35,655 nt of DNA from a virus: positions 1-35,655 of IMG/VR virus record IMGVR_UViG_3300027522_000012, one strand, 5' to 3'. The position numbers and the translations under genes are program-made. The notes below the pieces were generated by a model, which worked only from the letters and a program-made list of their open reading frames with translations, was not told the origin of the DNA and ran no database searches. Positions 4,268 through 27,555 of this stretch are shown here, piece after piece. The stretch's first letter is position 1; each line of letters opens with the position of its first letter.

Positions 4268-4269
4268 TT

Positions 4270-8785: not shown

Positions 8786-9537
8786 TATGAATACGTAGCT
8801 CCCTTAGGTAACATAGTTTTATCAAATGGTGCTAGTGGCCACACTAATGCTTTGCCGGCAATATCTTCTACCATATTTTTCCATATCTCTTCATTGTATA
8901 CAACATACCCTAAAGTCATTCTTGGCTCACCACCATAAGCACTATGCCACATAATCTTATCTTCTTCTTCCTTCTTACCATAATAGCCAGTCTTCATATG
9001 CCATCCTGGTACATCAGGTATATGTACTAAGTTCTTTTCAATAGGTTTATTAATCTTGCCTTTAGAACCTTCAGGATTAATATGTCTCCAGAAACCATTA
9101 CCAGTTTCTGTAAATGTAAATAGAACATTGTACCCTGGTACATTCCAATTGTTGTGCCATGCAATGTATCCATCTTTTGGATACCACATCTTCAATGCAC
9201 AAAATCTTATACCAAGCAATGCACCCAACTCGTTATCAAGCCACTGGTTCTTTTCTTGTATTACTTTTGCTAATGATAAATCTTTAATGTGATCATTCTT
9301 GACCCATGTAGCTATCTGATTAAAATCGTAACCATGTGAGTCAGGTGGAAAGCCATCATGCGTATCATGCTCCATAGAGTTTAAACATTCAATGCTTGTT
9401 GCATACAATGATCTGTTTTCTCTAAAGAACTTTCCTTTTCGTGTCATGAGTGTTGACATGTCTAAGCCCCAGACAAATGTTTTCCACTCATTTAATAATT
9501 TTAAAATCTCCGATTGTATCTCGTATACCGGGGTCAT
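8785..9537 (-). CDS. 2OG-Fe(II) oxygenase-like protein (HxN...H...R)
   Basis: 250 residues. The C-terminal part looks like a double-stranded beta-helix oxygenase: KDGYIAWHNNWN puts H128 and N130 where the HxD/E iron ligands lie, IMWHSA gives a distal H198, and PRMTLGY gives R206, suitably placed to bind the 2-oxoglutarate carboxylate. The usual Asp/Glu ligand is replaced by Asn. Some family members, such as aspartyl beta-hydroxylase, also lack the acidic ligand and are active, so activity is possible but unproven. Related proteins are common in marine T4-like phages. It overlaps the upstream transferase by 50 nt and has a GGAG site 8 nt before the ATG. Hydroxylation of a virion protein or a sugar is possible. 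Confidence 0.62.
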   Translation of the reverse strand: MTPVYEIQSEILKLLNEWKTFVWGLDMSTLMTRKGKFFRENRSLYATSIECLNSMEHDTHDGFPPDSHGYDFNQIATWVKNDHIKDLSLAKVIQEKNQWLDNELGALLGIRFCALKMWYPKDGYIAWHNNWNVPGYNVLFTFTETGNGFWRHINPEGSKGKINKPIEKNLVHIPDVPGWHMKTGYYGKKEEEDKIMWHSAYGGEPRMTLGYVVYNEEIWKNMVEDIAGKALVWPLAPFDKTMLPKGATYS

Positions 9538-10348: not shown

Positions 10349-11267
10349 TCATACTCTCCAATGCTATAATTGCGCCTACGTAAGCGGTCAGTTCCATAAT
10401 ACTTTTTGATCTTCTAATTTTAGATTTCATATCTCTATTAGTTGTATTACGAATCACATCCATTTCAAAAGCATCTATCTTAGCTTGGAACAACTTCTCT
10501 TGATCCATTTTATGCTGACGATCCTTATCACCTACTTCTTCTTTTTTTCTCATCTTATCAAGACGATCAATTTCTTTTTTAGTATTTCTATTGATAGCTT
10601 CTTGACCTACGAGCTTATGTACCCAATACCAAGCGTCTTGATGTTCTTTGGTATTATGAATTTGGTGTGCGTCTGTAGGTCCAGGTTGACCTTGTGGGCC
10701 GTCTGGATGTCTTAGAATGAAATGCATAAGAGATTTTTTATCATTACCGTAGTAAGCAAAGATTGGCTCTGCATCATTGAACGGAAACTTCGGTTCCTGT
10801 TTTTGTTCTTGTTTTTTCTCCGGTTGCTTCTCATCATCAGCACGAGCTACAACCTTGGTTTTTTCTTCTTCCATAATATTATTCTCTCTCTCCCAAGATG
10901 TTGTCTGGGGTGGTGGTCTGTTAATATTTAAACGGTCTTTTGATTTTTCTTCTCTGGCATCTATTGTTCTATTAGCTTGCTCTGCTTCAGTTGAAGCATG
11001 CTCAGTTACTGATGCGTCATCAAAATCTCCATTCTCTTTATGCTCTTGTGGTGTCATTTTACTGGCTCCAGTAATATATTTATCATCAATATTTCCATTC
11101 TCTTTATGCTCTTGTGGTGTCATTTTTACGTTGGGCTTTATGATTTCGGACAAAGCTGGGTATAATGGATTAACAGTATTATTTTTCCAATCCATAAAAA
11201 AATAGGTATTTCTAAGTTCTTCAACAGCATAATAATCAAACAATTTTCCTTGCTCTTTATTATTCAT
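10326..11267 (-). CDS. Charged low-complexity protein with a 22-residue duplication
   Basis: 313 residues, not recognised. The first third contains two tandem copies of a 22-residue unit beginning MTPQEHKENG (about residues 49 and 71). The middle is Lys/Glu/Gln-rich (KQPEKKQEQKQEPK) and probably disordered. Then come FNDAEPIFAYYG, a collagen-like GPQGQPGP and an aromatic DAWYWVHKLVGQ segment. The last 90 residues are a likely coiled coil (KKEIDRLDKMRKKEE...QHKMDQEKLFQAK). An internal ATG at 10874-10872 (MEEEKTK) has a GGGAG sequence about 12 nt upstream and could start a shorter form. It lies directly after fibre B, separated by 20 nt with an AAGAGGA site, so a role in fibre assembly or attachment is possible but unsupported. 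Confidence 0.6.
   Translation of the reverse strand: MNNKEQGKLFDYYAVEELRNTYFFMDWKNNTVNPLYPALSEIIKPNVKMTPQEHKENGNIDDKYITGASKMTPQEHKENGDFDDASVTEHASTEAEQANRTIDAREEKSKDRLNINRPPPQTTSWERENNIMEEEKTKVVARADDEKQPEKKQEQKQEPKFPFNDAEPIFAYYGNDKKSLMHFILRHPDGPQGQPGPTDAHQIHNTKEHQDAWYWVHKLVGQEAINRNTKKEIDRLDKMRKKEEVGDKDRQHKMDQEKLFQAKIDAFEMDVIRNTTNRDMKSKIRRSKSIMELTAYVGAIIALESMNGKPATD
11028..11126 (-). repeat. Perfect 33-bp direct repeat, 66-bp period
   Basis: Bases 11028-11060 and 11094-11126 are identical over 33 positions. They encode the two copies of the MTPQEHKENG unit in the 313-residue protein. The 66-bp offset is in frame (22 codons). The lack of silent changes suggests a recent duplication. Confidence 0.9.
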
Positions 11268-11287: not shown

Positions 11288-14200
11288 TTAAGCGGTCCTA
11301 ACCCATAAACTCACTGTGCTTATCACTTCAGTTTCATCATCTATGTTAGTACCGACGTATGCTTTGTTATAATCTTTGTTCCAAACTTTAGACCATACCT
11401 TATTATATATCTTTGTATAAACAGCCGTATATGCCTTAGTGTATGATCCACCATATAGTTTGATATAATCTTTAGCCCAGTCACCACTATACTCTTTAAT
11501 ATAATTTGCTTCCCAAATCTTACTATATGTTTTAGAATAATCTTTTGTATAATTCTTATTGTATTGTCCCACATATACCTTGTTGTAGTCAACACTAAAG
11601 TTCACTTCTCCTACATATATTTTAGACCATATCTTTGTATATGTCTTGTCATAATTTTTAGTATAGTTACGATCAAAGGTTCCTGTGTATACAGCAGTGT
11701 AATCTTTTGAATAATCTTTTGTATAGTTTGCTTCGTAGTCTGTACTATATGTCTTTGTGTAGTCTCTATCATATGTTCTTTCATAAGATGCTTGCCATAC
11801 TTTTGTATAAGCTCTATCACCTGTATATGTTCCAGTGTATGCTTTTGTATAATCTCTATCGTATGATTTTTCATATTCTTTAATGTATGATGTTGCACTA
11901 GTGTAGCCACCCTCATAAACTTTAGTCCATCCTGTTGTATACTCAGTAGTGTAAGCTCCAACAAATGTTGCAAGTGCCCAATTTGTACCTACAAATTCTG
12001 TATCACCTGACCACAGTTTTGTATATCTTACAGGACCAGAATATGAACCTGTCCATACTTTAGTGTAGGATTTTGAATATGTTTTAGTATAGTCGGCAGT
12101 ATAAGTTTTTTGATATTCTACAAGATAGTCTTTTGTCCATGTTGAGATAAACTCTTTATTATAATCACCCAACCATTCTTTAGTCCAAAGTTTTGTATAA
12201 GAAGCCTCATAGTCTTTTGTCCATTGCTTAGTAAACTCTTGTTGCCATAAACCTTCGTAGTGAGCTACATATGCTTTAGTCCACACTCTTCCATAATTAA
12301 CTGAATAGTCTGTATCAAATGTACCAGTGTAGACAGTTACATAATCTTTATCCCAATTCTTAGTATAGAATTTTTCCCATTCTCTAAACCAGTCAGTATG
12401 CCAATCCTTATCATAATTTTTTTCCCATAGAGTTGAGTATACAGTTGTATATGTTTTTACATAATCTTTATCATAGTTAGTTACCCACTCATGAGTCCAA
12501 TTAGCATGCCAAATTTTAACATAATCTTTTAACCATAACTTCGTATAGATTGTTGTATAATCTTTTTCATATTCACCCACCCATACTTTAGCATACACAG
12601 CATCATAATCTTTATTCCAAACTTTAGTATAGGTCTTAACATAATTTTTTATATAATCTTTATTCCATATCTTAGTATATGTCTTAACATAGTTTTTAAG
12701 ATAATCTGTAGAATAATCTTTAGTCCAGATCTTAGTATAGTTGGCATCAAACGATCCTTCGTACGCATCAGCATAAGCTTTATTATATAATTTCTGGTAA
12801 TTCTTTTCCCATATTTTAGTATACACACCAGTGTATGTTTTAACATAATCTTTATTGTAGTCTGTTGTATATGTCTTTACATAATTTTTAAGATAATCTT
12901 TGTTGTAATCTTTAACCCAGATCTTTGTATACTCACCTACCCAAACCTTTGCATAATCTTTATTATAGTCTTTAGTCCAGATCTTAGTATAAATTTTAGT
13001 CCATACTTTTTCATAATTTTTAGTCCAATCAACATGGTAGTCTTTAGACCATATCTTTGTATAATCTTTACCCCATACTTTAGTATAAATTTTAGTATAG
13101 TTAGTCTCATCTGATCCTGACTCATAGCCACCATAGTATGTTGGACCTACCCAAATCTTAGTGTATTCTTTATCCCATACTTTAGCATAAATCTTTGTAT
13201 AATCTTTAGTCCAAGATAATTGATATGCTTTAACATAGTTTTTAAGATAGTCTTTTGAATAATCCTTTTGCCATACTTTAGTATAGTTAGCATCAAAGCT
13301 ACCTTCATAGGCTTTAACATAAGTCTTGGACCAAATTTTGGTATAGACTGCATCATAATCTTTAACGTAATCTTTATTGTACACACCTACATAAGAACCA
13401 ACCCATACCTTAGCATAAATTTTAGTATAGTTAGTTTCATCATCTCCAGACTCATAGCCACCATAGTAAGTTGGGCCTACCCATATCTTAGTATAGTTAG
13501 CATCAAATGAACCATCAAAAGATCCCTCATATGATTTAACATAATTTTTAGACCAAAGTTTTGTATAAATTTTAGTGTAGTCTTTTACATAATCTTTTTC
13601 ATATACACCCACCCATACTTTAGCATAAATCTTTGTATAGTCTTTAGTCCAAATTTTAGTATAAGTTTTAACATAATCTTTATGCCAATGTTGAGCCCAT
13701 GTGTTAACATAAATTTTAAGATAATCTTTATCGTAGGTTGTAGTGTAATCTTTGGAATATGTTTTAACATATGTTGCATCAAAGGATCCTTCATATACAG
13801 CATCATAATCTTTACTGTATGTCTTTACGTAATTTTTAACATAATCTTTATTCCATACCTTAGTATAGGTTTTAACATATGCTGTATCAAATGTACCTTC
13901 ATAAGTTGTTGTATATGTTTTCACATAATCTTTAACATAACCTTTAACCCAACCTTTAGTATATTCCCCTAGCCAGACTTTAGCATATATTTTAGTATAG
14001 TCTTTTGACCAGATCTTAGTATAGGCTTTAACATAATCTTTATCATATGTTGTTGTATAGGCCTTGACATAATTTTTAAGATAGTCTTTATTATAATCTG
14101 TTGTATAAGTCTTAACCCATATCTTAGTATAGTTAGCATCAAATGATCCCTCATATGCTTTAGTCCATACTTTTGTGTATAGCTTTTCATATGCTTTTAC

Positions 14201-17200
14201 ATAATTTGCAGTCCACGAGTCTTGATATGCTGCCTCATAATCTTTAAGATAATTTTTAGACCATAACTTTGTATAGATTTTTACATAATCTTTTTCCCAG
14301 ATCTTTGTATACTCTCCTACCCATACCTTATTATAAATTTTAGTATAGTCAGCACCATAACTCTTTACATAATTCTTTTCCCAGATCTTAGTATACTCTG
14401 CATCATAACTCTTTACATAGTTTTTAAGATAGTCTTTTGAATAAGCTTTTTGCCATGCTTTAGTATAGTCTGTGGAGTAATCTTTGACCCATACCTTAGT
14501 ATAGTTAGCATCAAACGAACCTTCATATACATCTACATAATCTTTATTGTATAGCTTATTCCAAATCTTAGTATACTCTCCAACCCAAACCTTTGCATAT
14601 ATTTTAGTATAGTCTTTAGTCCAGATCTTTGTATAAGTCTTAACATAATCTTTAAGATAATCTTTAGTCCAAACTTTTGTATACTCACCTACCCATACTT
14701 TTGCATAAATTTTAGTATAATCTTTTTGCCAAATTTTAGTATACTCTCCTACCCAAACTTTAGAGTATATCTTTGTATAATCTTTAGTCCATACCTTAGC
14801 CCAAACTTTAGTATACTCACCTAGCCAGACTTTAGCATAGATTTTAGTATAGTTAGTCTCATCTGATCCAGACTCATAGCCACCATAGTAAGTTGGTCCA
14901 ACCCAGATCTTAGTATAGTTAGCATCAAATGATCCCTCATATATTTTAGTATAGTCTTTACCATAATCTTTAGCCCACACTTTAGTATAGTTAGCATCAA
15001 ACGATCCTTCGTATACAGCATCATAAGCTTTAGCCCATACTTTAGTATAGTTAGCATCAAACGATCCTTCGTATACTTTATCATAGGCCTTACTATATGT
15101 TTTAACATAATTTTTGAGATAGTCTGTACTGTAATCTTTAGCCCATACCTTTGTATAGTTAGCATCAAACGATCCCTCATACACAGCATCATAGGCTTTA
15201 ACATAACCTTTGACCCAACCTTTAGTATATTCCCCTAGCCAAACTTTAGCATAGATTTTAGTATAGTCTTTTGACCAGATCTTAGTATACACTTTATCAT
15301 AATCTTTCAACCATAACTTTGTATAAGTCTTTACATAATCCTTGTCCCATAGTTTGGTATAGATAGTGGTGTATGTTTTGACATAATCTTTATCCCAAAG
15401 TTTAGACCATACTTTTGTATACGCAGCATCAAAAGATCCTTCATATATTTTTGTATAAGTCTTAACCCAATTTTTAGTATAGTCAGCTGAATAATCTTTA
15501 ACATAATCTTTAGTCCACAATCTATGCCACTCTTTAGCATACTCAGCTTCCCAGGCTTTTACATATGTTTTAACATAATTCTTTTCCCATATCTTAGTAT
15601 AGTCGCCTTCATAATGTTTTAAGTATCTGGCAGAAAATGATTGTTGGTATGCTTTCTCATATGTTGTTTCATAATCTTTGGAATATGTTTTGAGGTAATT
15701 TTTTCTATATCTTTTAACATAATCTTTTTGCCAGATCTTTGTATAGGTTTTAAGATAGTCTTTACTATAATCAGCATCATAAGATTTAACATAATTTTTT
15801 AGATAGTCAGTAGTATATGTCTTAGTCCATATCTTAGTATAGTCTGCATCAAACGATCCCTCATATACATCTACGTAATTTTTATTGTATAGCTTTTGAT
15901 AATTTTTAAGGTAATCTGTTTCCCATAACTTAGTCCAAACTTTAGTATATGTCTTAACATAATTTTTTATATAATCTTTATTCCATACTTTAGTATAAAC
16001 CCCTACATAATTTTTAGTCCAGATCTTAGTATAGTTAGCATCAAATGACCCCTCATATACATCAACATAATCTTTGTTGTATAACTTATTCCAGATCTTT
16101 GTATACTCACCTACCCATACTTTAGCATAAATCTTTGTATAATCTTTAGTCCAGATCTTTGTATAAATTTTAGTGTAGTCTTTTAGATAATCTTTTTCAT
16201 ATAATTTAGTATACTCACCTACCCAAACCTTTGCATATACTTTGTCATAGGCCTTAGTCCATACTTTAGTATATTCCCCTACCCATACTTTAGCATATAT
16301 TTTAGTCCAGGCACCAACATAAATTTTAGTGTAGTTAGTCTCATCTGATCCAGACTCATAGCCACCATAGTAAGTTGGACCTACCCAAATCTTAGTGTAT
16401 TCTTTATCCCATACTTTAGTATAATTAGCATCAAAAGAACCTTCATATATCTTAGTGTAATCTTTATTCCAGATCTTTGTATAGTTAGCATCAAACGAAC
16501 CTTCGTATACTTTATCATATGCTTTAGTATATGTCTTAGTCCAGATCTTAGTATACACTGCATCATAATCTTTTTGCCATACCTTAGTATAGTTAGCATC
16601 AAACGAACCTTCGTATGCAGCATCATAAGCTTTTACATAACCTTTAACCCAACCTTTAGTATACTCACCCAACCATACCTTTGCATAAATTTTAGTATAG
16701 CCAGTTGTGAATGTACCCTCATAAGTTGTAGTATATGTTTTAACATAATTTTTTATATAGTCTTTATTGTAGTCAGTACTATAATCAGCTGACCAAACTT
16801 TAGTGTATGCTTTTACATAGTCCTTTGTATATCCTTTAACCCAACCTTTAGTATATAACCCTAACCATACTTTTGAATATATCTTAGTATAATCTTTTTC
16901 CCAGATCTTAGTATAGGCTTTAACATAATCCTTATCCCATAACTTAGTATAAATTTTTGTATAGGCTTTAACATAATCTGTTTCATAATTTTTTACATAG
17001 TTTTTAAACCAATTATTTTGATACTTCTTAACATAATCTTTTGTCCATATCTTAGTATAGAGCTTATGCCATTCTTGAGCATAAGATGTTTCCCAAACTT
17101 TTTGGTATTGTGTAATATATGACTTGACCCAATTCTTTGTATAGTTACCTGTATAGGTTTTAGTCCACAATTTTGTATATAATTTAACGTAGCCTTTTTC

Positions 17201-18880
17201 CCATTGGTTTTCATATGCACCACCAGCAAAATGTCCTTCATATATCTTGCTATATTCTTTTGTCCAGTTATGTGTATATTCAACAGAGTAATCTTTTGAA
17301 TATGATCCAACAAATGTGTGAATGTAATTACCAATATAATCTTTAGACCATGCTTTACCATAACCTTTTAAATAATCAACTGAGTATGTCTTAGACCAAT
17401 TCTTTGCATAGTTAACATCAAAGGTACCTTCATATGCAACGTCTCCTGCATAATGCTGTTCATAATTAACAACGCTAGTGTATGCACCTGTATATACTTT
17501 TGCTCCTGTATACGTACCTTCATATATTCTATCGTAGTTAGTTAAATAACTTTTAGCTGATGAACCTCCATACACTGTGTCCCCAACATATGTTTTTTCA
17601 TATAACTTTGTCCATGCATGAGTGTATATTTTTTCCCAATTGTGATCAAATGTTTCTGAAGCTACATAGTTTTTTGACCATAACTTTATATACTCTTTTA
17701 AGTAAGCAGATGTATATGCTTTTGTATAATTCTTTGTCCATTGTTTAACATATATCTTATCATAAAGTTTAGTCCAAATTTTTGTATAGTCACCAGTAAA
17801 GGTTTTAGTATAAATTTTTTCATAAGCCTTGTTGTAATCTTTAACATAATCTTTTGTATAATTTACTTCACCCACCCACAACTTAGTATATGTTTTAGTA
17901 TACTCTCCATCATATGTTTTTGTATATGTTTTAGTATATGTCTTACTATAGTCTGTAGCATAACCACCTACGTAAACTTTTTCATATGAGTTACCATATA
18001 GTTTTGTATAAGTCTTAGAATATTCACCAGCATACTCTTTAACATATACAGAGGTATAAGTTTTTGTATAGTCAGCTGAATAGTCTGCACCATAAGATTT
18101 AGTATAAGCTTTTGTATATGTTTTACCAGAACCTAATATATGTCTTCTATCTGTAAAAGCAACTCCCTGTCTTAACCATGTTCCTGATGCTGGAGCATTC
18201 TCCTGTAATACATACTTACCAATACCAGTAGTCATCATTTGATTTCTAAACCTACTAATAAATGCTGCTAGATTAGTATTAGACATTTCATTAAGTGAAC
18301 CACTACTACTACCAAGTTTAAGAGGATATAGTGCTGTTGTGCTGGCACCAGTTGTTCTTCTCCAAATTTGTGTTGTTGTATTAGAAGCTGTACCATTACC
18401 TGTTACTGTATCTGATAAAGTAAGTATAGAAGTGTATTGACTATTTGGTTGAGAAGGATTCATAACATAAGACCCAACACCATTAGAAACTAAATTAGTT
18501 AATGCTCTGTTTATTATTGAAGCATTTAATGTTGTGTCTGTTTGTTCTTGAATTGGATATGTACTTGAAACGTACTCTAATGGTCTGACCATTCCAGACT
18601 CATCATTGTTGCTATTACCTTGCCATTGGCGTACTGTTGTTGTACTGACAGTTGATGTAGCACCACCTGGTGTTGTTTGACCTACACCTTCTGTTCTTCT
18701 AGTATCAACAAAAGAACCTATAGATGTATAATCACCTGAGGTAGAAATAATTCCAGGACCAGTATTAGCCACAAACTCAGTAAGAATTTGATGGACAGTA
18801 TGATCCATATTTTCATTGGTCATAGTTTGAAGACCGTTGAATGTACTACCTGAATATTTTATCTTTAGTGGGTTGGCCAT
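11288..18880 (-). CDS. Giant tetrad-repeat fibre-like protein B (2530 aa)
   Basis: Residues 1-250 are a non-repeat head with three diverged copies (about 17-61, 115-158 and 196-246) of a helix-plus-strand motif ending in a GxGxY...DT/DR pattern. From about 253 to 2508 the protein is a tetrapeptide repeat, aromatic-x-Lys-x, as in YTKIW, SKDYNKDY and AKVWVGEY. Tyr or Trp recurs every four residues with Lys two residues later. Recurring sub-modules are YEGSFDANYTK (about 16 copies), VGPTYYGGYESGSDETN (four copies) and LGEYTKGWVKGY. The C-terminus is only about 20 non-repeat residues, ending in LWVRTA. It is twice the size of T4 long-fibre proteins. Role as a fibre is inferred from repeats, size and place among virion genes. 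An AAAGGTGA site precedes the ATG. I recall repeats of this general style in marine phage fibres but cannot verify that here. Confidence 0.85.
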   Translation of the reverse strand: MANPLKIKYSGSTFNGLQTMTNENMDHTVHQILTEFVANTGPGIISTSGDYTSIGSFVDTRRTEGVGQTTPGGATSTVSTTTVRQWQGNSNNDESGMVRPLEYVSSTYPIQEQTDTTLNASIINRALTNLVSNGVGSYVMNPSQPNSQYTSILTLSDTVTGNGTASNTTTQIWRRTTGASTTALYPLKLGSSSGSLNEMSNTNLAAFISRFRNQMMTTGIGKYVLQENAPASGTWLRQGVAFTDRRHILGSGKTYTKAYTKSYGADYSADYTKTYTSVYVKEYAGEYSKTYTKLYGNSYEKVYVGGYATDYSKTYTKTYTKTYDGEYTKTYTKLWVGEVNYTKDYVKDYNKAYEKIYTKTFTGDYTKIWTKLYDKIYVKQWTKNYTKAYTSAYLKEYIKLWSKNYVASETFDHNWEKIYTHAWTKLYEKTYVGDTVYGGSSAKSYLTNYDRIYEGTYTGAKVYTGAYTSVVNYEQHYAGDVAYEGTFDVNYAKNWSKTYSVDYLKGYGKAWSKDYIGNYIHTFVGSYSKDYSVEYTHNWTKEYSKIYEGHFAGGAYENQWEKGYVKLYTKLWTKTYTGNYTKNWVKSYITQYQKVWETSYAQEWHKLYTKIWTKDYVKKYQNNWFKNYVKNYETDYVKAYTKIYTKLWDKDYVKAYTKIWEKDYTKIYSKVWLGLYTKGWVKGYTKDYVKAYTKVWSADYSTDYNKDYIKNYVKTYTTTYEGTFTTGYTKIYAKVWLGEYTKGWVKGYVKAYDAAYEGSFDANYTKVWQKDYDAVYTKIWTKTYTKAYDKVYEGSFDANYTKIWNKDYTKIYEGSFDANYTKVWDKEYTKIWVGPTYYGGYESGSDETNYTKIYVGAWTKIYAKVWVGEYTKVWTKAYDKVYAKVWVGEYTKLYEKDYLKDYTKIYTKIWTKDYTKIYAKVWVGEYTKIWNKLYNKDYVDVYEGSFDANYTKIWTKNYVGVYTKVWNKDYIKNYVKTYTKVWTKLWETDYLKNYQKLYNKNYVDVYEGSFDADYTKIWTKTYTTDYLKNYVKSYDADYSKDYLKTYTKIWQKDYVKRYRKNYLKTYSKDYETTYEKAYQQSFSARYLKHYEGDYTKIWEKNYVKTYVKAWEAEYAKEWHRLWTKDYVKDYSADYTKNWVKTYTKIYEGSFDAAYTKVWSKLWDKDYVKTYTTIYTKLWDKDYVKTYTKLWLKDYDKVYTKIWSKDYTKIYAKVWLGEYTKGWVKGYVKAYDAVYEGSFDANYTKVWAKDYSTDYLKNYVKTYSKAYDKVYEGSFDANYTKVWAKAYDAVYEGSFDANYTKVWAKDYGKDYTKIYEGSFDANYTKIWVGPTYYGGYESGSDETNYTKIYAKVWLGEYTKVWAKVWTKDYTKIYSKVWVGEYTKIWQKDYTKIYAKVWVGEYTKVWTKDYLKDYVKTYTKIWTKDYTKIYAKVWVGEYTKIWNKLYNKDYVDVYEGSFDANYTKVWVKDYSTDYTKAWQKAYSKDYLKNYVKSYDAEYTKIWEKNYVKSYGADYTKIYNKVWVGEYTKIWEKDYVKIYTKLWSKNYLKDYEAAYQDSWTANYVKAYEKLYTKVWTKAYEGSFDANYTKIWVKTYTTDYNKDYLKNYVKAYTTTYDKDYVKAYTKIWSKDYTKIYAKVWLGEYTKGWVKGYVKDYVKTYTTTYEGTFDTAYVKTYTKVWNKDYVKNYVKTYSKDYDAVYEGSFDATYVKTYSKDYTTTYDKDYLKIYVNTWAQHWHKDYVKTYTKIWTKDYTKIYAKVWVGVYEKDYVKDYTKIYTKLWSKNYVKSYEGSFDGSFDANYTKIWVGPTYYGGYESGDDETNYTKIYAKVWVGSYVGVYNKDYVKDYDAVYTKIWSKTYVKAYEGSFDANYTKVWQKDYSKDYLKNYVKAYQLSWTKDYTKIYAKVWDKEYTKIWVGPTYYGGYESGSDETNYTKIYTKVWGKDYTKIWSKDYHVDWTKNYEKVWTKIYTKIWTKDYNKDYAKVWVGEYTKIWVKDYNKDYLKNYVKTYTTDYNKDYVKTYTGVYTKIWEKNYQKLYNKAYADAYEGSFDANYTKIWTKDYSTDYLKNYVKTYTKIWNKDYIKNYVKTYTKVWNKDYDAVYAKVWVGEYEKDYTTIYTKLWLKDYVKIWHANWTHEWVTNYDKDYVKTYTTVYSTLWEKNYDKDWHTDWFREWEKFYTKNWDKDYVTVYTGTFDTDYSVNYGRVWTKAYVAHYEGLWQQEFTKQWTKDYEASYTKLWTKEWLGDYNKEFISTWTKDYLVEYQKTYTADYTKTYSKSYTKVWTGSYSGPVRYTKLWSGDTEFVGTNWALATFVGAYTTEYTTGWTKVYEGGYTSATSYIKEYEKSYDRDYTKAYTGTYTGDRAYTKVWQASYERTYDRDYTKTYSTDYEANYTKDYSKDYTAVYTGTFDRNYTKNYDKTYTKIWSKIYVGEVNFSVDYNKVYVGQYNKNYTKDYSKTYSKIWEANYIKEYSGDWAKDYIKLYGGSYTKAYTAVYTKIYNKVWSKVWNKDYNKAYVGTNIDDETEVISTVSLWVRTA
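11357..18124 (-). repeat. 12-bp-periodic coding array in fibre B
   Basis: About 6.8 kb of nearly uninterrupted 12-bp periodicity. On the plus strand a CATA/CCA/GTA-type aromatic anticodon complement recurs every 12 bases, for example in aaattttagtataatcttta. Units differ at the x positions, so it is a diverged, not a homogeneous, satellite. Boundaries are set by the first and last regular Tyr/Trp spacing in the translation and are accurate to about 20 bases. Confidence 0.88.
13028..13700 (-). repeat. Block shared with fibre A (copy in B)
   Basis: This stretch aligns without gaps to 21701-22373 at a constant offset of 8673. I checked four landmarks: the HVDW codons at 13028, the TYYGG codons at 13128 and 13458, and the AQHWH codons at 13681. 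Encoded residues are almost the same in both copies (for example YNKDYVKDYDAVYTKIWSK and NYVKAYQLSWTK). The repeat elsewhere in A and B is far less similar, so this is a specific duplicated or converted segment. Confidence 0.85.
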
Positions 18881-18899
18881 AGGTTCACCTTTACCTACT

Positions 18900-18907
18900 T
18901 ATTTATG
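18900..18907 (-). promoter_or_regulatory. Possible late promoter variant, CATAAATA
   Basis: The minus strand reads CATAAATA, one base from the T4 late element TATAAATA. It lies in the 36-nt gap between fibre A and fibre B, 19 nt before the B start, so a transcript could begin just ahead of the AAAGGTGA site. This would allow B to be expressed apart from A. One mismatch and an AT-rich background limit confidence. Confidence 0.35.
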
Positions 18908-18916
18908 ATATATTAA

Positions 18917-21900
18917 TTATGCCAATTTGAATGTTTCATCACCAGCAATGTTACCTCTATTAGATCCACCTGGTCCTGTAAAGTGAACTCTAGCTGCATC
19001 AAATCCATCAACAGCTTTACCTGGTATACCACCATCACCACTCATAGCCCAAATTGTTCTTGTAGAGACGCCTGTCACAGTTTTATCCATATTAGCACCA
19101 TAACCTATACCACCTAGCACACCACCTGTACCTCCTGATACTCTTGAGTTATGTGTTGTAGATATATCTGGTTTAGCTCCTGTACCACCTACTAATAACT
19201 GGCCTGCTGTTGAGGCTGCTGTTACAGCACTTGCTGTTGCACCTGCTGCACCACCTGGGAAGCCAGCACCACCACCGCCACCAGAACCTGATTGGTTAGT
19301 AAACTCAGATGATTTGTCACCAGTTAACGGATCACTATACATTGTCAAGCCACCAGCACCACCTCCGCCAGCTCCACCACCTATAGTACCATAATTTTCT
19401 ACAAATAATTTAACATGAGCATCAGTCTTAATAGCTGAACCACCATTTGCTCCATCAGCACCTGCTGTATTATCTGCAGCTGCTCCACCAGCTCCACCAG
19501 CACCTACAATGTAACCATTGTTATATGTAACAATTCTTACTAAGTGTTGGAATGATTGAGCACTACCACCGTCTGTTTGATTAATTGATATAGATGCAAA
19601 TCCAGTTAGATCAATAGCAGGTCTTGCTGCATTGTTAGATCCCATTACAAAATAATTATCAAATTGATTTTGTTGACCAACGTGGATAGTAGTCATTGTT
19701 GGATAAGTTCCACTGTCTCTACCTTTATGATCTAAGAATTCTTTTAGGTTGAATTCATTTACAAAGTAAGATGTCTTAGCACCTTCGTGTCCTGTAATAG
19801 TTGCTGAACCTTTAGATGAGAACTCTCCTAACGTATCTGGAGTAGCAGTTGTATCATTTTCACCTCTTAAATAATATTCACTAGCTGTATTAGCTTGAGC
19901 ACTACCTACATGGGAATCAAGATATACATCTGTATGTTTATATCCTATGTTTACAAGTTTCCAATTACCACCTTCTTTACTATGGAAGTAAGGTACTTCT
20001 TTCCATACATCATCTTCTCTTACCCATAGCTTCTTAGCTTGTTCCCAGTTATCATCTTTCTTAATAAACAATTGAGGTTTAGTATTTGCTAATGCACCAC
20101 TATGTGATCCAACAAAGTTTGTAGGTCCAACATAAGTTGAATGTGATGTTCTTTCACCTGTGTAAGCTATTTCAAAATATTGATCCCCTGTATATGTTGG
20201 ACTATATGTTTGAAGGAAGTTAGTATCTAAATTATAAACCTTAGTATATATTTTATTGTAATTTATTAGACCATCAAATGTACCTCTGTAATTAAATATA
20301 GCTTCACCCTCATAAGTTTTTACATAATCTTTATTGTATACTGTAGTATAATCTGTGCTGTAATCTTTTGTATAAGTTTTAGTCCAGATCTTAGTATAGT
20401 TATCATCACCATCAGCATATATTTTAGTATAGTCTTTATTATAATCTTTTGACCATATCTTAGTCCACACTTTAGTGTATGCCTTTGTATAAGTTTTAAG
20501 GTAATTTGTTAATGCAAAGAACAGTAGACCGGTAGTATAATTTTTTACACTTACATATGATACTGCAGTAGCAGGATTTAAGAATGATACTTCAGCTGAG
20601 AATGTTCTTGTACCAGCAGACCCACCTTCGTAAACTTTAGTATATGTCTTCTCCCAAATTTTAGTATAGTCTTTATTATAATCTTTAGTGTATGTTTTTG
20701 TAAATGCACCAGTATATACTGCGGTGTAAGATGCATCATAACTCTTAGCCCAATCTCTTGTCCACACTTTACCATATACTTTATTATAAACAGATGTATC
20801 ACTACCACTAGCAAAACCACCATAGTAAGTAGGTCCAACCCAATCTTTAGCATAATCAGCACCGTACTCAGTACCATAATCTTTTTGCCAAAGTTTGTGC
20901 CAGTTACGTGAGAAGTCTGATGCATAATCTTTATTGTAATCTTTTGAATATGTTTTAACATATATTGTTGTATAAGTTTTAACATAATCTTTTGAGAAGC
21001 CACCTGATGCATAGTTACCTGTGTAACTTAATATGCCTGTGTAAGATGCAGTGTATGCTTTTGGTGATGTGTAAGCTGTTACCCCAGAATAATACGCAAT
21101 CCATACAGCCCATATTCTTTCATATGCTTTTGTATATGTTTTAGTCCAGATCTTAGTATAGTCTGTAGTGTATGTTTTAACATAATTTTTAGACCAGATC
21201 TTTGTATATGTTTTAACATAGTCTGTCTCATAATCTTTAACATAGTTTTTAAGATAGTTCTTAGTCCAGATCTTAGTATAGTTGGCATCATAAGCCTTTA
21301 CATAATTTTTAAGATAAATTGTTGTATAGTCTTTAGTGTAAATTGTGGTATATGTTTTTACCCAATTTTTTGTCCACTCTGCATCATAATGTTTAGTATA
21401 AATTTTAGTATAAGTTTTAACGTAACCTTTAACCCAACCTTTAGTATATTCTCCTACCCATACTTTAGCATAAATTTTAGTATAATCAACAGCATAATCT
21501 TTTGACCATACTTTTGTATAACTTTTTACATAATCTTTATTCCATATCTTAGTATATACTGTAGTATAATCTTTAAGGTAATCTTTTTCCCAAAGCTTAG
21601 TATACTCTCCAACCCATACCTTAGACCAAATTTTAGTATAATCTTTAAGGTAATCTTTTGAATATACTTTAGTCCATATTTTTCCATAATCTTTAGCCCA
21701 ATCTACATGGTAGTCTTTAGACCATACCTTAGTATATTCTTTATCCCACGCCTTAGTATAGATTTTAGTATAGTTAGTTTCATCTGATCCAGACTCATAG
21801 CCACCATAGTAAGTTGGTCCAACCCAGATCTTTGTATATGTTTTATCCCATATTTTAGTATAAATTGTGGTGTAGGTTTTAGTCCAAGATAACTGGTATG

Positions 21901-24900
21901 CTTTAACATAGTTTTTAAGATAGTCAGTGGAATAATCTTTTTGCCATACCTTAGTGTAGTTAGCATCAAATGAACCTTCATATGTTTTAACATAATTTTT
22001 AGACCAGATCTTAGTATAAACTGCATCATAATCTTTAACGTAATCTTTATTGTAGACACCTACATAAGAACCAACCCATACCTTAGCATAGATTTTAGTA
22101 TAGTTAGTCTCATCTGATCCTGACTCATAGCCACCATAGTATGTTGGTCCAACCCAGATCTTAGTATAGTTGGCACCAAACGATCCATCAAAAGAACCTT
22201 CATATGCTTTTACATAATTTTTAGACCAGAGTTTAGTATAAATTTTAGTGTAGTCTTTTATATAATCTTTATTGTATTCACCAACCCATACTTTAGCATA
22301 AATCTTTGTATAATCTTTAGTCCAGATCTTTGTATAAGTCTTAACATAATCTTTATGCCAATGTTGGGCCCACGTCTTAGTATAAACTTTACCATAGTCT
22401 TTAGAGTAGTCTTTAGTATATGTCTTAACATATACTTTTGTATAGTCTGCATCAAATGAACCTTCATATATTTTATCGTAAGCCTTAGTATAAGTCTTAA
22501 CCCATATCTTAGTATAGGCGGCATCATAAGCCTTTACATAATTTTTAAGATAGATGGCATCATAATCTTTAACCCATATCTTAGCCCATACCTTTGTATA
22601 GTTGGCATCAAAAGAGCCTTCATATACATCTACATAATCTTTAGCATATAATTTATTATAGTCTTTTGAATAATCTTTTGCAAATGAATGTACGTAATCT
22701 TTTACATAATCTTTAGACCAAATTTTAGTATAGATTTTAGTATAGTTAGTTTCATCTGATCCAGACTCATAGCCACCATAGTAAGTAGGACCTACCCATA
22801 TTTTTGTATATTCTTTATCGTAATCTTTTACATAAGCCTTTGCATATGATTCAACATATATTTTAAGATAATCTTTATTCCATATCTTAGTATAGGCTTT
22901 TTGCCAGACTTTTGTATACTCTTTTATATAATCTTTATTCCATATTTTAGTATAAATTTTAGTATAATCTTTTAGATAATCTTTTACATAATCCTTAGAC
23001 CAAATTTTTGTATAAGTTTTTAAATAGTCAGTACTATAATCTTTAACATAATCCTTTTCCCAGATCTTAGTATACACTGCCGTATAATTTTTTAAATAAT
23101 CTTTTTCATATAATTTTAAATATCCAGCTATACTGTAGTTAGAAGCAACACCTGTATAAAGTTTATTATAAGCTACGTCTCCTGCAAAATTATGAATACC
23201 TGTGAAAGATAATGTACCTACATAAGCTTTAAAATAAATCTTACTATAGTTTACTTCACCTATATAAGTAACATCTGTACGATATGATTTAACATAATCA
23301 AGCACACCTGTATATGTCTTAACATAGTTGACAATATAATTCTGAGTTCCTGTCCATGTTGCAGCACCTGTATATGCTTTAACATAATCTACTGGGCCGT
23401 CCCATATCCTACTAAAGTCTGCACTCTGCCATATCCTTGTATACACAGTTGTATAGTCAGCACTATAATCTTTTGTATATGTCTTGGTATAATCTGTAGT
23501 CCAAGTCTTGGTATAGTCTGCTTGGTAATCTTTTGAATATGTTTTAACGTAGTTGTCACCTAAGGTATCAACATAATCTTTATGGTAATCTTTAGACCAT
23601 AGTTTAGTATAAACTGCAGTCCATATCTTAGTATAAATTTTATCATAATCTTTTGTATATACTTTAGACCATACCTTTGTATAATCTTTTGAGTAGTCTG
23701 CTACAGTAGCACCTTCCCATAATTTAGTATATGCTACTATTCCCATATATGCTTTAACGTAATCCTTAGCTCCAACAAAAGTCCCTAGATAATCTTTTGT
23801 GTAGCTTCCAACACCAGTATAATATATTAATCCTACATAATCTTTATTGTAGTTTAATAATCCTACGTAGGCTTTATTATAATCTTTGGAATAAATTTTA
23901 GTATAGTTGTCACTACCATCTGCCCAAATTTTAGTATAATCTTTAGTATATGTTTTTGTATATGTGGCGTTACCTTCATATGCTTTTGTATATGGTTTAG
24001 TAGTTCCTATATAACTTGTATTGAATGTTTCTGCACCAGTGAAGTTACCTTCTGATTGATACACCTTTGTAAAAGTTCCTGTATAAGGAGCAGTTCCTGT
24101 GTACGCTTTATTGTAACCTAATTCACTACCTGTGTACACTCCTTGCCAAACTTTTGTAAATGCTTTTTCATATGATCCAAACGAACCAATATATTCAGCT
24201 GTGTAGTCCCCTGTGAAGTTTAATGTTGTTGCATATGATGCTTCATAATTTGTAAGGCCTTGATATATTTTAACAAAATTAACACTACCAGTATATGTTT
24301 TTAAATAATCTTTTGTTAATTTTACATATGCACGAGTCCATGTTTTATTATAGACAGCTGTATACTCTGCTGCATAAAGTTTAATATAGTTTGCACTATA
24401 GTCTTTACTATATGCTTTTGTATAACTCTTAGTCCAAATTTTTGTATAGTCTTTACTATATGCTTTTTGATATATTTTTGTATATGTACCAGTCCAAGCA
24501 CCAACATAAATTTTTGTATATTGTTTAACCCAATTTTTAGCATAGTCTGTACTATAGGCTTTTTGATAGGCTTTAAGATATGCTTTTTCATATACGGCTG
24601 TGTAATCTTTATTCCAAACTTTTGTATATTCTTTTATATAACTTTTTGTCCATACTTTTGTAAATGCACCAACATAATCTTTATCATAGTCTTTACCGTA
24701 TTCAGAACTACCCCAAACTTTAGAGTAAGTCTTGGTAAAGGCTCTTGTATATATTTTAGTATAATCTTTATCATAATTCTTTAAGTAATCTGTAGTATAT
24801 GTTTTAGTCCATACTTTTGTATATGCTTTTACGTATGCTTTATTATAATCTTTTGTCCACAGTTTAGTATATACTTTGACATAATCTTTTTCCCATACCT

Positions 24901-26581
24901 TAGTATAGTTCTTTGCATATGCTGTACCATCCCAAGTCTTAGTATAATCCTTAGTCCAAAGTTTTGTATAAATTTTAGTGTAATCTTTATTGTAAACTTT
25001 TTCATAATCCTTAGCCCACAACTTAGTGTAAGTTTTATTATAATCTTTTACATATATTTTAGTATACGCCGCAGCAAAGTCTCTAGTACTTCCAGACATA
25101 AAATTAACTTCTGCTGTATAAGTAACACTATATGTTTTAAGGAAATCTGTTACACCCTCATATGCTTTATTATAAACTAAAAATGTACCTGTGTAGATTT
25201 TTGTATAATCTTTTACATATGTTTTAACATAATCAGTACTGTAATCTTCAGCCCATAACTTTGTATAAGTTTTATCATAATTAGCACTATAATCTTTTGA
25301 CCATATCTTAGTCCACACTTTAGCGTAGTCTTTTGAATATGATGGACTCCATGCGCCTACATATATTTTAGTATATGCTTTACTGTAATCTTTTTCATAT
25401 GTTTTATTATATTCACCTGAATAAACTACAGCATAATCTTTAGACCAAATTTTAGTATATGTTTTAACATAATCTTTTGAGAAGCTACCGTCAAATGATC
25501 CTTCATATATCTTAGTATAACCTTTAGTGTAGGTCTTAACATAATCTTTATTGTAATCTGCTGAATAATCTTTAGTATATGTCTTTGTATAATCTTTTAA
25601 ATAAGTAACAGTAAATACATCTTCATTACTATCTACATAGGCTTTCGTATAACCTTTTGTATATGCTTTATTATAATCCTTAGACCAGATCTTAGTATAG
25701 GTCTTAACATAATTTTTGTTATAATCTTTAGACCAGATCTTAGTATACTCACCTACAAAGGCTCCAACATATGTTTTAACATAATTTTTATTATAGTCAG
25801 CTGTATAATCTTTAGACCAAAGTTTTGTATACTGACCAGAGTATTGTTTAGTATAATTTTTTACATAACCCTTAGACCAGTCCTTACTATAATCAGATTC
25901 ATAAGATGCTGAGTTAGTATACACTTTTGTATAAATTTTATTATAATCAGCACTATAATCTTTAGACCAAATTTTAGTATATGTTTTGGTATAATCTGTA
26001 GAGTAATCTTTAGTCCAAATTTTTGTATAATTTTTGTTATAGTCCTTAGACCATATCTTAGTAAAGTTTGCTTCACCAGCAAAAGCAACTAGCCCTACAT
26101 ATATTTTTGTATAAGCTTTTGTATAACTAACATCTGTAACATAAGCGGCTGGACCTGTATAAAAATTTGCTCCTAAATATGCCTTTGAATAATCTACAAG
26201 ACCAATACCATATGCACCACCTGAATCTGAGAATGCTGAAGCAAAATTTATAAAAGAACCTTGAGCATACATTTTCAAATACTCTAACCCACCAAGGAAA
26301 TCTGTATCACCAGCCCACTGCTTTGAATAATTTGTAAGGACAGAACCTAACCAATTTCTATCATATAGTTTTGTGTATGGAACTTCAGAAGTATATGCTT
26401 TAATATAACCATGCAGCTGGGTATTCTCATCTTTTAAATAGTGACCACTATAGCCTCCAAAGGTCCCTTCATATGCAGCACTATAGGACGTTAAGGGTGT
26501 GTGAGCTGTCGTACTTAGGTACGAGCGTACAAAGCCCTCGTCTGCTCCTATAAAAGATGATGCAAATTGTCTAGTGGCCAT
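18917..26581 (-). CDS. Giant tetrad-repeat fibre-like protein A (2554 aa) with glycine-rich tip
   Basis: Residues 1-167 form an aromatic-rich head (opening MATRQFASSFIGADEG) that grades into repeats. About 168-2150 are tetrads aromatic-x-Lys-x (YTKIWSKDYNKNY and similar). Stretches near 830-990 and 1080-1150 instead use aromatic-x-Gly-x (YTGTAPYTGTF). From about 2171 comes a non-repeat tip: three Trp-Lys/Glu motifs (NWEQAKKLWVREDDVWKEV and NWKLV), a beta domain, then a glycine-rich region (about 2355-2475, such as YIVGAGGAGGAA and GGGAGGGGAGG). That region resembles the polyglycine segments of T2-type gp38 adhesins and other phage tips. I infer a long fibre whose C-terminus contacts the host. 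It begins 16 nt after the 98-residue gene. The repeat makes automatic annotation difficult, since other frames stay open too. Confidence 0.87.
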   Translation of the reverse strand: MATRQFASSFIGADEGFVRSYLSTTAHTPLTSYSAAYEGTFGGYSGHYLKDENTQLHGYIKAYTSEVPYTKLYDRNWLGSVLTNYSKQWAGDTDFLGGLEYLKMYAQGSFINFASAFSDSGGAYGIGLVDYSKAYLGANFYTGPAAYVTDVSYTKAYTKIYVGLVAFAGEANFTKIWSKDYNKNYTKIWTKDYSTDYTKTYTKIWSKDYSADYNKIYTKVYTNSASYESDYSKDWSKGYVKNYTKQYSGQYTKLWSKDYTADYNKNYVKTYVGAFVGEYTKIWSKDYNKNYVKTYTKIWSKDYNKAYTKGYTKAYVDSNEDVFTVTYLKDYTKTYTKDYSADYNKDYVKTYTKGYTKIYEGSFDGSFSKDYVKTYTKIWSKDYAVVYSGEYNKTYEKDYSKAYTKIYVGAWSPSYSKDYAKVWTKIWSKDYSANYDKTYTKLWAEDYSTDYVKTYVKDYTKIYTGTFLVYNKAYEGVTDFLKTYSVTYTAEVNFMSGSTRDFAAAYTKIYVKDYNKTYTKLWAKDYEKVYNKDYTKIYTKLWTKDYTKTWDGTAYAKNYTKVWEKDYVKVYTKLWTKDYNKAYVKAYTKVWTKTYTTDYLKNYDKDYTKIYTRAFTKTYSKVWGSSEYGKDYDKDYVGAFTKVWTKSYIKEYTKVWNKDYTAVYEKAYLKAYQKAYSTDYAKNWVKQYTKIYVGAWTGTYTKIYQKAYSKDYTKIWTKSYTKAYSKDYSANYIKLYAAEYTAVYNKTWTRAYVKLTKDYLKTYTGSVNFVKIYQGLTNYEASYATTLNFTGDYTAEYIGSFGSYEKAFTKVWQGVYTGSELGYNKAYTGTAPYTGTFTKVYQSEGNFTGAETFNTSYIGTTKPYTKAYEGNATYTKTYTKDYTKIWADGSDNYTKIYSKDYNKAYVGLLNYNKDYVGLIYYTGVGSYTKDYLGTFVGAKDYVKAYMGIVAYTKLWEGATVADYSKDYTKVWSKVYTKDYDKIYTKIWTAVYTKLWSKDYHKDYVDTLGDNYVKTYSKDYQADYTKTWTTDYTKTYTKDYSADYTTVYTRIWQSADFSRIWDGPVDYVKAYTGAATWTGTQNYIVNYVKTYTGVLDYVKSYRTDVTYIGEVNYSKIYFKAYVGTLSFTGIHNFAGDVAYNKLYTGVASNYSIAGYLKLYEKDYLKNYTAVYTKIWEKDYVKDYSTDYLKTYTKIWSKDYVKDYLKDYTKIYTKIWNKDYIKEYTKVWQKAYTKIWNKDYLKIYVESYAKAYVKDYDKEYTKIWVGPTYYGGYESGSDETNYTKIYTKIWSKDYVKDYVHSFAKDYSKDYNKLYAKDYVDVYEGSFDANYTKVWAKIWVKDYDAIYLKNYVKAYDAAYTKIWVKTYTKAYDKIYEGSFDADYTKVYVKTYTKDYSKDYGKVYTKTWAQHWHKDYVKTYTKIWTKDYTKIYAKVWVGEYNKDYIKDYTKIYTKLWSKNYVKAYEGSFDGSFGANYTKIWVGPTYYGGYESGSDETNYTKIYAKVWVGSYVGVYNKDYVKDYDAVYTKIWSKNYVKTYEGSFDANYTKVWQKDYSTDYLKNYVKAYQLSWTKTYTTIYTKIWDKTYTKIWVGPTYYGGYESGSDETNYTKIYTKAWDKEYTKVWSKDYHVDWAKDYGKIWTKVYSKDYLKDYTKIWSKVWVGEYTKLWEKDYLKDYTTVYTKIWNKDYVKSYTKVWSKDYAVDYTKIYAKVWVGEYTKGWVKGYVKTYTKIYTKHYDAEWTKNWVKTYTTIYTKDYTTIYLKNYVKAYDANYTKIWTKNYLKNYVKDYETDYVKTYTKIWSKNYVKTYTTDYTKIWTKTYTKAYERIWAVWIAYYSGVTAYTSPKAYTASYTGILSYTGNYASGGFSKDYVKTYTTIYVKTYSKDYNKDYASDFSRNWHKLWQKDYGTEYGADYAKDWVGPTYYGGFASGSDTSVYNKVYGKVWTRDWAKSYDASYTAVYTGAFTKTYTKDYNKDYTKIWEKTYTKVYEGGSAGTRTFSAEVSFLNPATAVSYVSVKNYTTGLLFFALTNYLKTYTKAYTKVWTKIWSKDYNKDYTKIYADGDDNYTKIWTKTYTKDYSTDYTTVYNKDYVKTYEGEAIFNYRGTFDGLINYNKIYTKVYNLDTNFLQTYSPTYTGDQYFEIAYTGERTSHSTYVGPTNFVGSHSGALANTKPQLFIKKDDNWEQAKKLWVREDDVWKEVPYFHSKEGGNWKLVNIGYKHTDVYLDSHVGSAQANTASEYYLRGENDTTATPDTLGEFSSKGSATITGHEGAKTSYFVNEFNLKEFLDHKGRDSGTYPTMTTIHVGQQNQFDNYFVMGSNNAARPAIDLTGFASISINQTDGGSAQSFQHLVRIVTYNNGYIVGAGGAGGAAADNTAGADGANGGSAIKTDAHVKLFVENYGTIGGGAGGGGAGGLTMYSDPLTGDKSSEFTNQSGSGGGGGAGFPGGAAGATASAVTAASTAGQLLVGGTGAKPDISTTHNSRVSGGTGGVLGGIGYGANMDKTVTGVSTRTIWAMSGDGGIPGKAVDGFDAARVHFTGPGGSNRGNIAGDETFKLA
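20130..26080 (-). repeat. 12-bp-periodic coding array in fibre A
   Basis: About 6 kb of 12-bp periodicity encoding aromatic-x-Lys-x tetrads, more degenerate than the array in B and broken by Gly-type stretches (roughly 23130-24200) and by inserts that shift the aromatic spacing by two residues. Degenerate units continue toward 26480. Boundaries are approximate and come from the translated aromatic spacing. Confidence 0.83.
21701..22373 (-). repeat. Block shared with fibre B (copy in A)
   Basis: Gap-free counterpart of 13028-13700 at constant offset 8673, with matching TYYGG codons at 21801 and 22131 and matching AQHWH codons at 22354. Silent and replacement differences are scattered, for example Asp/Ser in ESG[S/D]DETN, so the copies have diverged since the event. 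Confidence 0.85.
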
Positions 26582-26597: not shown

Positions 26598-26894
26598 CTA
26601 ACTATATGTCTGATAATGTATGTCGCCATTGTTCCCACCTGAAGGTGCACCAGTAGTAACGGTTACTGCGTAACCACCATCATGGGAACCATCAAATGTT
26701 CTTGCTGTGAAAGATAATGATATATCATTGTTGACAGTGGCAGTTGCTAAACCTTTTGTATCAAACGTAACAATTGCACCATTGGCTCCTGCACCATATG
26801 TGCCTGTTATTCCTGATATTGTTGGTAGCGTTGCCGATTGTACATTTGCTGTGCTGTTAACAACTTCAACATTATTTACCTTGAGTGCGCCCAT
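26598..26894 (-). CDS. Small fibre-associated protein
   Basis: 98 residues with a beta-rich, Ala/Thr/Asn/Gly-rich composition: LPTISGITGTYGAGANG (23-39), then ISLSFTARTFDGSHDGG and a terminal GGNNGDIHYQTYS. The end motif GDIxYQ/K after Gly/Asn is frequent in phage fibre and collar proteins, where it marks a short surface domain. No chaperone or catalytic site is visible. It overlaps the S74 protein gene by 23 nt, is preceded by an excellent AAAGGAGAT site and ends 16 nt before giant fibre A. It may be a connector between the short fibre and A, or a separate minor virion protein; both are inference. Confidence 0.6.
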   Translation of the reverse strand: MGALKVNNVEVVNSTANVQSATLPTISGITGTYGAGANGAIVTFDTKGLATATVNNDISLSFTARTFDGSHDGGYAVTVTTGAPSGGNNGDIHYQTYS

Positions 26895-27555
26895 CTTCTA
26901 TCTCCTTTAAATCGTCGACTTCTTGTTTTAAATTTTTGACTGCATCTATAAGCAAAGGAATTAGAGATTGATATTTAACAGATAACTTTCCATCATCTCT
27001 TTCGTTTACCAAGTATGGAAGAACATTTTGTACTTCCTGAGCTATAACACCTATATCTGTTTGACCGTCTCTATGATCCTTAGCATCCCACTCAAATAAA
27101 TAACCATTTATCTGTTCAAGAATTTCCCATGTATCAGGTATTGCTCTTACATTAAGTTTTAAAGTTTGATCAGATGTGTAACTTGCTTCAAGGTCACCAA
27201 ATGCTCTTATGTTATTAGCATAGACATTACCCCAAGCCTTTGTAGCTGTGCCCATATCTAATGTTAAGTTAGCAGCTGGATGTGTTGCTGAACCAATAAT
27301 TAAATTAGCAGAGGCAGATGTTGTACCACCTCTTAACTGTGTGTTAGCCACTAGATAGTTACTTGAAAAGTATCCATTGACGTGACCGTTGCCAGTTGTT
27401 TCAGCGTGATTAGTACCACTTGGTTGAGCCACAGCTGCAGTAGTTATAACAACAGTACTCAAGTCATATGTAATACGGTTTGTTAAATCTACCCACTCAC
27501 TAAACGTATCAGTTGTAGGTGCTACGTTTGCTCCTGTATATGTTGTCTTAGCCAT
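26872..27555 (-). CDS. Short fibre protein with S74 intramolecular chaperone domain
   Basis: 227 residues. The first 120 are a Thr/Asn/Ala-rich beta region with GTATKAWGNVYANNIRAFGDL just before the chaperone, a typical fibre-to-chaperone junction. Residues about 121-225 form a Peptidase_S74 domain: YTSDQTLK (126-133) carries the conserved Ser128-Asp129 pair, followed by the EILEQINGYLFEW and DIGVIAQEVQNVLP blocks and a C-terminal helix (LLIDAVKNLKQEVDDLKE). In this family the domain trimerises the fibre and then cleaves itself off just before the Ser. Cleavage here would leave a mature part of about 127 residues, unusually short. An AGAGGGT site precedes the ATG, and the gene overlaps the upstream one by 8 nt. 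Confidence 0.83.
   Translation of the reverse strand: MAKTTYTGANVAPTTDTFSEWVDLTNRITYDLSTVVITTAAVAQPSGTNHAETTGNGHVNGYFSSNYLVANTQLRGGTTSASANLIIGSATHPAANLTLDMGTATKAWGNVYANNIRAFGDLEASYTSDQTLKLNVRAIPDTWEILEQINGYLFEWDAKDHRDGQTDIGVIAQEVQNVLPYLVNERDDGKLSVKYQSLIPLLIDAVKNLKQEVDDLKEIEDGRTQGK

Follow-up and report, generated by a model that had tools for sequence, protein, structure and literature searches.

What kind of structure might be built from two adjacent giant proteins of a marine phage in which an aromatic residue recurs every four residues? The question is raised by a 35.6-kb virus record (IMG/VR record IMGVR_UViG_3300027522_000012; its full stretch of 35,655 nucleotides is called the window here) that carries part of a T4-like structural block. 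The block runs from gp6 through a 2140-aa DUF4815/VrlC protein, a fiber protein with an S74 chaperone domain, and a 98-aa ORF to the giant proteins B and A; past A follow a 313-aa protein, a 286-aa glycosyltransferase-like protein, a 250-aa protein, further accessory genes, and the neck and sheath-stabilizer genes. The two giant ORFs are exactly as given in the first-pass annotation, with protein A (P0001; 2530 aa) at 11288 to 18880 and the adjoining protein B (P0002; 2554 aa) at 18917 to 26581, both on the minus strand. Their comparison with the site of T4 genes 11, 12, and wac is borne out by the presence of the gp6 wedge and DUF4815 proteins on one side and of neck proteins and the tail sheath stabilizer on the other.

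The DUF4815/VrlC-type protein upstream of the fiber genes (27765 to 34187, minus strand) has its nearest relatives in alphaproteobacterial T4-like phages, namely Caulobacter phage Cr30, Sinorhizobium phages phiM7 and phiM12, and Pelagibacter phage HTVC008M. The small tail-fiber protein (26872 to 27555, minus strand) harbors an S74 intramolecular chaperone domain (Peptidase_S74, 9.9e-13) and matches tail-fiber PHROGs. Three minus-strand genes lie 3′ of A: the 313-aa protein (10326 to 11267) has a weak, sub-threshold gp53-like match (Phage_gp53, E = 0.0011), the 286-aa protein (9488 to 10348) resembles glycosyltransferase family 2 just under the cut-off (Glycos_transf_2, E = 2.9e-4), and the 250-aa protein occupies 8785 to 9537. 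Relative to contigs L013 (23688 to 27189) and L014 (23439 to 27137), the gene block between the fiber cassette and a homolog of the L-shaped-fiber-assembly protein (3869 to 8785 in the window) is inverted. Among the loci compared, a 482-aa gene (4270 to 5718) was found in the window and the near-identical contig L010 only.

Another aromatic residue stands at +4 for a fraction of 0.917 of the aromatics in A and 0.768 in B, whereas shuffles of the same composition gave 0.226 and 0.209 (z = 46 and 36, respectively); the same test showed no such excess in the neighboring DUF4815 protein (z = −1.3). In uninterrupted ladders of these tetrads, position 0 is Tyr (71 to 75%), Trp (20 to 24%), or Phe (5 to 6%), while position 2, where Lys had been noticed two residues past the aromatic, is indeed Lys in 67 to 75% and Gly in 7 to 12% of tetrads. 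The aromatic content, 22.8% in A and 20.9% in B, is nearer one residue in 4.5 than the one in four first described; the estimate of about 2000 ladder residues per protein agrees with A (2120 residues in runs of at least five tetrads) but is too high for B (1440 residues). A recurrent insert, GPTYYGGYESGSDETN, breaks the ladders at residues 832 to 850, 1326 to 1344, 1800 to 1818, and 1910 to 1928 of A and at several places in B, and possibly forms a side loop.

Comparison of A with a 77%-identical homolog from contig L013 gave a ladder dN/dS of ~0.19, with 556 of 558 ladder aromatics kept, which indicates that A is a real coding sequence under selection. The same protein (2713-residue ORF) is encoded by contigs L011 and L013, which come from separate metagenomes, arguing against an assembly artifact. 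A disordered low-complexity or adhesive polymer with no defined fold would be in line with the composition, as well as with the low ladder pLDDT in both structure models described below. However, the conservation of the aromatics at 77% identity, the low dN/dS, and paired indels that preserve the register (see below) need a fixed structure, and we consider such a polymer scarcely credible. The repeat was unlike any known shaft repeat, as had been suspected: Pfam, PHROG, NCBIfam, and PDB searches gave no match to it. Among known tail-fiber families, no Pfam or PHROG match was found in A, and in B only a C-terminal Gp38 domain; a match of A to PHROG 5353 (4e-12) was set aside as an uninformative repeat match to a PHROG of unknown function. 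A literature search covering papers available outside subscription found no description of such a repeat or fiber.

Judged by its sequence, A is a member of an undescribed phage protein family in which a 250-aa N-terminal domain (N-domain) is followed by a ladder ranging from 17 to ~580 tetrads and, at the C terminus, by a conserved cap ending in [ST]x[VY][ST]L[WY]xRxA. The N-domain of A (residues 1 to 250; 18131 to 18880, minus strand) is the family hallmark: in phmmer and hmmsearch comparisons it is conserved in dozens of ladder ORFs, which match an HMM built from these same residues of A, and A itself matches at 9e-81. A has +4 aromatics in most tetrads and ends in the cap (residues 2509 to 2530 plus stop; 11288 to 11356, minus strand; ...STVSLWVRTA), assigned from the conserved end motif and from strand pairing in homolog models, whereas B has the ladder with neither N-domain nor cap. 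Profile searches found the N-domain to be unlike any Pfam, PHROG, NCBIfam, or PDB profile, with no significant PDB sequence match, and Foldseek of a confident N-domain model matched no fold in either the PDB (best E, 0.64) or BFVD (best E, 0.47). In the model of the homolog L160 (6080 to 7144, residues 1 to 258), the domain apparently consists of three successive β-β-α-β-β-β repeats, and the final strand of the third continues into the ladder.

A tblastn search with A of 50,697 phage genomes identified one record, phage C48C1 (Kyanoviridae). Pattern scans of IMG/VR yielded at least ~120 stretches for the Lys-type ladder and at least as many for the Gly/Arg type, some of which are unrelated simple repeats; the family members come from dozens of uncultured phage contigs and the one named record. 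Ladder-like bacterial and archaeal sequences were rejected as simple repeats lacking the N-domain. Vibrio phage matches to C48C1 were rejected too, since they fall at residues 1831 to 2067, near the chain middle and outside the ladder. The ladder gene of the family occupies one genome site, with gp6/DUF4815 ahead of it and a conserved set of three genes behind it: homologs of the 313-, 286-, and 250-aa proteins follow it in 28 of 28 loci with enough downstream sequence, and DUF4815 lies upstream in 22 of 28 loci with enough upstream sequence, counts that include some near-duplicates. Two or three N-domain ladder genes per phage occur in tandem in L201, L166, L246, L142, L211, L192, L202, and L223.

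The idea that the chain runs out and back came from AlphaFold2 (AF2) models of short homologs and was afterwards tested on sequence alone. In L160, a complete homolog of 355 aa modeled with 65 sequences, the pLDDT of the N-domain is mostly >90, and strands at residues 237 to 258 and 324 to 353 correspond to the ladder start and the ladder end. A pairing sum of 582 follows from where these strands end, so that Tyr 249, the first of the ladder, faces Tyr 333, the last. The L246 model (488 aa) has strands at 243 to 269 and 459 to 486, with a sum of 728 to 729 and the first ladder Tyr, 261, again opposite the last, 467. The pairing in these monomer models was deduced from strand ends, and the ladder base alone is modeled, the pLDDT being <50 over most of the ladder in both proteins. 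In the models the cap pairs with the N-domain, and the C terminus of the A family is thus not placed at a tip. Such a tip would be expected of a conventional linear shaft, in which three chains lie parallel, each with its N terminus at the base and its C terminus at the tip, and the tetrad is a new trimeric shaft repeat; this arrangement is typical of T4-like long tail fibers and fits the genome position and the Gp38-type C terminus of B.

Paired arms require four-residue phase slips to match across the arms. When A is folded in the register Y255-Y2508, so that residue i faces residue 2763 − i, the first 300 residues contain 71 N-arm aromatics, of which 70 meet an aromatic of the C-arm, and this match crosses five phase breaks (e.g., LWVGEVNY opposite FNVEGVY), after which an apparent one-residue shift occurs at FAGGAY. 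With 600-residue arms, the mirror score of A is 260, versus 160 in direct order and 141 ± 13 with shuffled spacings. L011 and L064, both homologous to A, show the same mirror pattern. A separate Lys clade with about ten matched phase breaks gave mirror scores of 246 for L014 (direct order, 124; null, 134 ± 10) and 183 for L062 (direct order, 104; null, 113 ± 9). Mirror order scores about the same as direct order in the G-type members L142, L192, and L211. For several R-type members, this test, which counts aromatics only, ranks the predicted register under other registers, Arg having taken the place of aromatics in one of the arms. An 83-residue insertion (residues ~241 to 323) is present near the ladder base in one arm only of L062 (6003 to 10364).

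A DP trace through A extends over 1108 paired residues; it contains 270 aromatic pairs, 10 mismatches, and 3 gaps and ends with residue 1376 opposite 1384, which puts the apex near 1380. Periodicity, mirror pairing, and this trace delimit an N-arm (residues 255 to 1376; 14753 to 18118), a putative hairpin apex (residues 1377 to 1383; 14732 to 14752), and, with the 2763 − i pairing and its five matched breaks, a C-arm (residues 1384 to 2508; 11357 to 14731), all on the minus strand. The position of the apex is uncertain: the ladder is uniform there, and the GPTYYGGYESGSDETN loop at 1326 to 1344 is an alternative apex.

Compensating indels were sought by aligning pairs of homologs and comparing indels between the arms, with direct order as a control. 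Between L247 and L159, the N-arm differs by +12, −58, +14, −4, and −12 at 68, 388, 460, 580, and 595 from the N end, and the C-arm by +12, −58, +14, −4, and −12 at 66, 394, 466, 572, and 598 from the C end. Equal mirrored indels thus number five of five in this pair, six in L219/L239, and five in L232/L239 (each P < 0.0005 versus random positions), against no direct-order matches in any of the three; L247/L239 has four (P = 0.007), and, as some sequences are common to several pairs, these tests are not fully independent. Pairs of short members have arm indels of +32/+32, +12/+12, and 20+28/48. The mirrored-indel match was not significant in pairs with large rearrangements (e.g., L232/L219 and L247/L179), nor do the interior indels of A versus L011 or L064 match in mirror order. 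In the interior of A, direct block duplications outscore mirroring, and the absence of an indel signal in this clade is attributed to a uniform ladder with such duplications. Pairing in A is therefore direct for the basal 300 residues, and we infer the remainder from the family, including the register beyond ~300 residues and the apex position.

Facing residues gave a further test in an Arg-rich clade (ten proteins, related to each other). In the predicted register, large-large (Arg-Arg) position-2 pairs were observed 0 times against 21.3 expected, 103 of 120 pairs combine a large residue, mostly Arg, with a small one (Gly/Ser), and this complementarity is lost on a shift of one tetrad or more; in G-type proteins, all register shifts are alike. 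Short members have a similar turn, Y-[TIV]-L-[FY]-[FY]-x-G..., at the exact ladder midpoint, where many long members have an irregular or globular segment. A β-structure with aromatics and Lys sharing one face, as first proposed, is supported. The accompanying idea of a cation-π ladder is compatible with the observations, Lys facing Lys between aromatic rows in the clade of the window and Arg alternating with aromatics in a related clade.

A linear shaft leaves unexplained the mirrored indels and phase breaks, the Arg/Gly complementarity across arms, the pairing of cap and N-domain, and the mid-chain turn. We regard it as improbable; for A it was rejected because of the mirrored indels and the AF2 base pairing, and for B it may still apply. 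Of the first-pass proposal, the virion fiber with a repeat unlike known shafts is supported, and in the A family the linear shaft gives way to antiparallel arms. In our view, antiparallel pairing of the two ladder arms in the A family is established by these sequence comparisons. The same mirror signature would be expected if the arms paired between different subunits of an interlocked oligomer, and fibers usually are oligomers; yet the AF2 monomers already close the base within a single chain and nothing requires swapping, which makes this arrangement unlikely, and the models strongly suggest that the pairing is intrachain.

A short regular repeat would also suit a compact β-solenoid or a repeated short meander, and A taken as a whole reaches 39 bits with the Hexapep model of Pfam. 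That score is the sum of weak matches: no single stretch passes, the period is 4 rather than 6, and aromatics at +6 are not enriched, so identity as a Hexapep β-helix (PF00132) was rejected. The super-period varies across the family (3 tetrads in C48C1, 5 in L141, and weak in the window), which led to the rejection of a solenoid with fixed tetrads per turn, and long-range mirrored indels would be unneeded in a solenoid. We consider this fold very unlikely.

We conclude that A is very likely a virion fiber protein whose ladder forms one giant antiparallel β-hairpin. The N-domain would sit at the fiber base, presumably fixed to the baseplate or close to it. From this domain the chain would emerge as a β-strand, run ~1,120 residues out, turn near residue 1380, and return over ~1,120 residues, and the last 22 residues would pair back onto the N-domain, which would bring N-domain and C terminus next to each other at the base and leave the middle of the chain as the free end. 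With ~0.33 nm for each residue, A would probably be an out-and-back β-ribbon of roughly 370 nm. Aromatics of both arms would be directly opposed every fourth residue, with rows of Lys (Gly or Arg in relatives) between them and Thr/Ser/Val and Asp/Asn on the other face, and length would evolve by the addition of tetrads to both arms in register. Several hairpins probably bundle, stabilizing the ribbon. In relatives, the mid-chain free end (a conserved turn or small domain) is likely the part that contacts the receptor. It is tempting to speculate that the glycosyltransferase-like neighbor modifies the Thr/Ser-rich face.

B differs in its C-terminal part. Residues 1 to 2090 (20312 to 26581) comprise an N-terminal region and, by periodicity, aromatic-x-Lys-x ladders with irregular segments; residues 2091 to 2330 (19592 to 20311) contain repeated Trp/Val segments and a domain that phmmer finds common to B homologs; and residues 2345 to 2547 (18941 to 19549) form a Gp38-type glycine-rich adhesin (PF05268 GP38, 1.2e-7; phrog_2056, host specificity, 1e-11), all on the minus strand. 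The last region passes the PF05268 gathering cut-off (32.2 bits versus 25). In solved relatives of Gp38, receptor loops protrude from a polyglycine-II lattice (PMC12892980). In six B homologs (L014, L080, L134, L062, L090, and L107), ~1,000 to 1,300 ladder residues lie inside the Gp38-type domain, between glycine-rich motifs, an arrangement in which the two ends of the insert would have to be close as well. In the mirror test, these inserts were suggestive in L080 and L014 and not in L062, L107, and L134, and the ladder of B in the window showed no clear mirror symmetry; on this sequence evidence, we claim no hairpin for B. The structural gene block, the adhesin domain in the neighbor of A, and the mid-chain tips indicate that A and B most likely serve as host-binding virion fibers. 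A host-binding fiber had been predicted, and the T4 gene 10-12/wac position and the Gp38-type C terminus of B agree with it. Because the adhesin recognizable in the window lies at the end of B, the two proteins probably act as paired fibers or as one composite fiber.

To our knowledge, all known phage fiber shafts are bundles of parallel chains that extend from the base to the tip. It is likely that the A family represents a new class of virion fiber, made of a single β-hairpin of up to ~1000 residues per arm with matched expansion of the arms and with the receptor end mid-chain or on a partner protein; a hairpin-shaped fiber of this kind appears not to have been described. A kilo-residue hairpin, if true, would be a different way of building a long fiber, with the receptor-binding end in the middle of the chain, and would raise questions about folding, assembly, and length evolution. 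Matched arm expansion, if true, would be for a protein what compensatory change is for an RNA stem, and compensating indels offer a sequence-only way to find paired long strands in repeat proteins that are hard for structure predictors. Many contigs of uncultured T4-like phages carry the family, yet its one annotated member is named as hypothetical only.

Among known systems, the trimeric shafts of T4 gp37, gp34, and gp12 share with A and B the neighborhood and the probable role as host-binding fibers, but differ from the A family in having another repeat, no sequence match, and no out-and-back chain. The Gp38 adhesins of T2/S16/PP01-type phages (PF05268; PDB 6F45; PMC12892980) share the glycine-rich C-terminal domain with B; Gp38, however, is a separate protein capping the gp37 trimer, whereas the domain of B is fused to a 2,000-residue ladder in a 2554-aa protein. 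Cyanophage tail fibers with VTGN-type Gly tetrads (e.g., the S-RIM2 structural protein AOO04672) resemble A in that their repeat is four residues long, has a hydrophobic residue at position 0 and Gly at position 2, and is encoded at the same place ahead of the neck genes, but they are aliphatic and short, with no N-domain seen in the sequence, and S-RIM2 matches were rejected as family members because this fiber has neither ladder nor N-domain. The one annotated counterpart is the C48C1 hypothetical protein WJE88074.1 (Kyanoviridae; OQ984149), which is longer than A (3347 aa), carries several inserted domains, and has [YF]-x-[GR]-x tetrads with Gly/Arg instead of Lys, yet shares with A the N-domain, the ladder, the cap, DUF4815 upstream, and the companion genes downstream.
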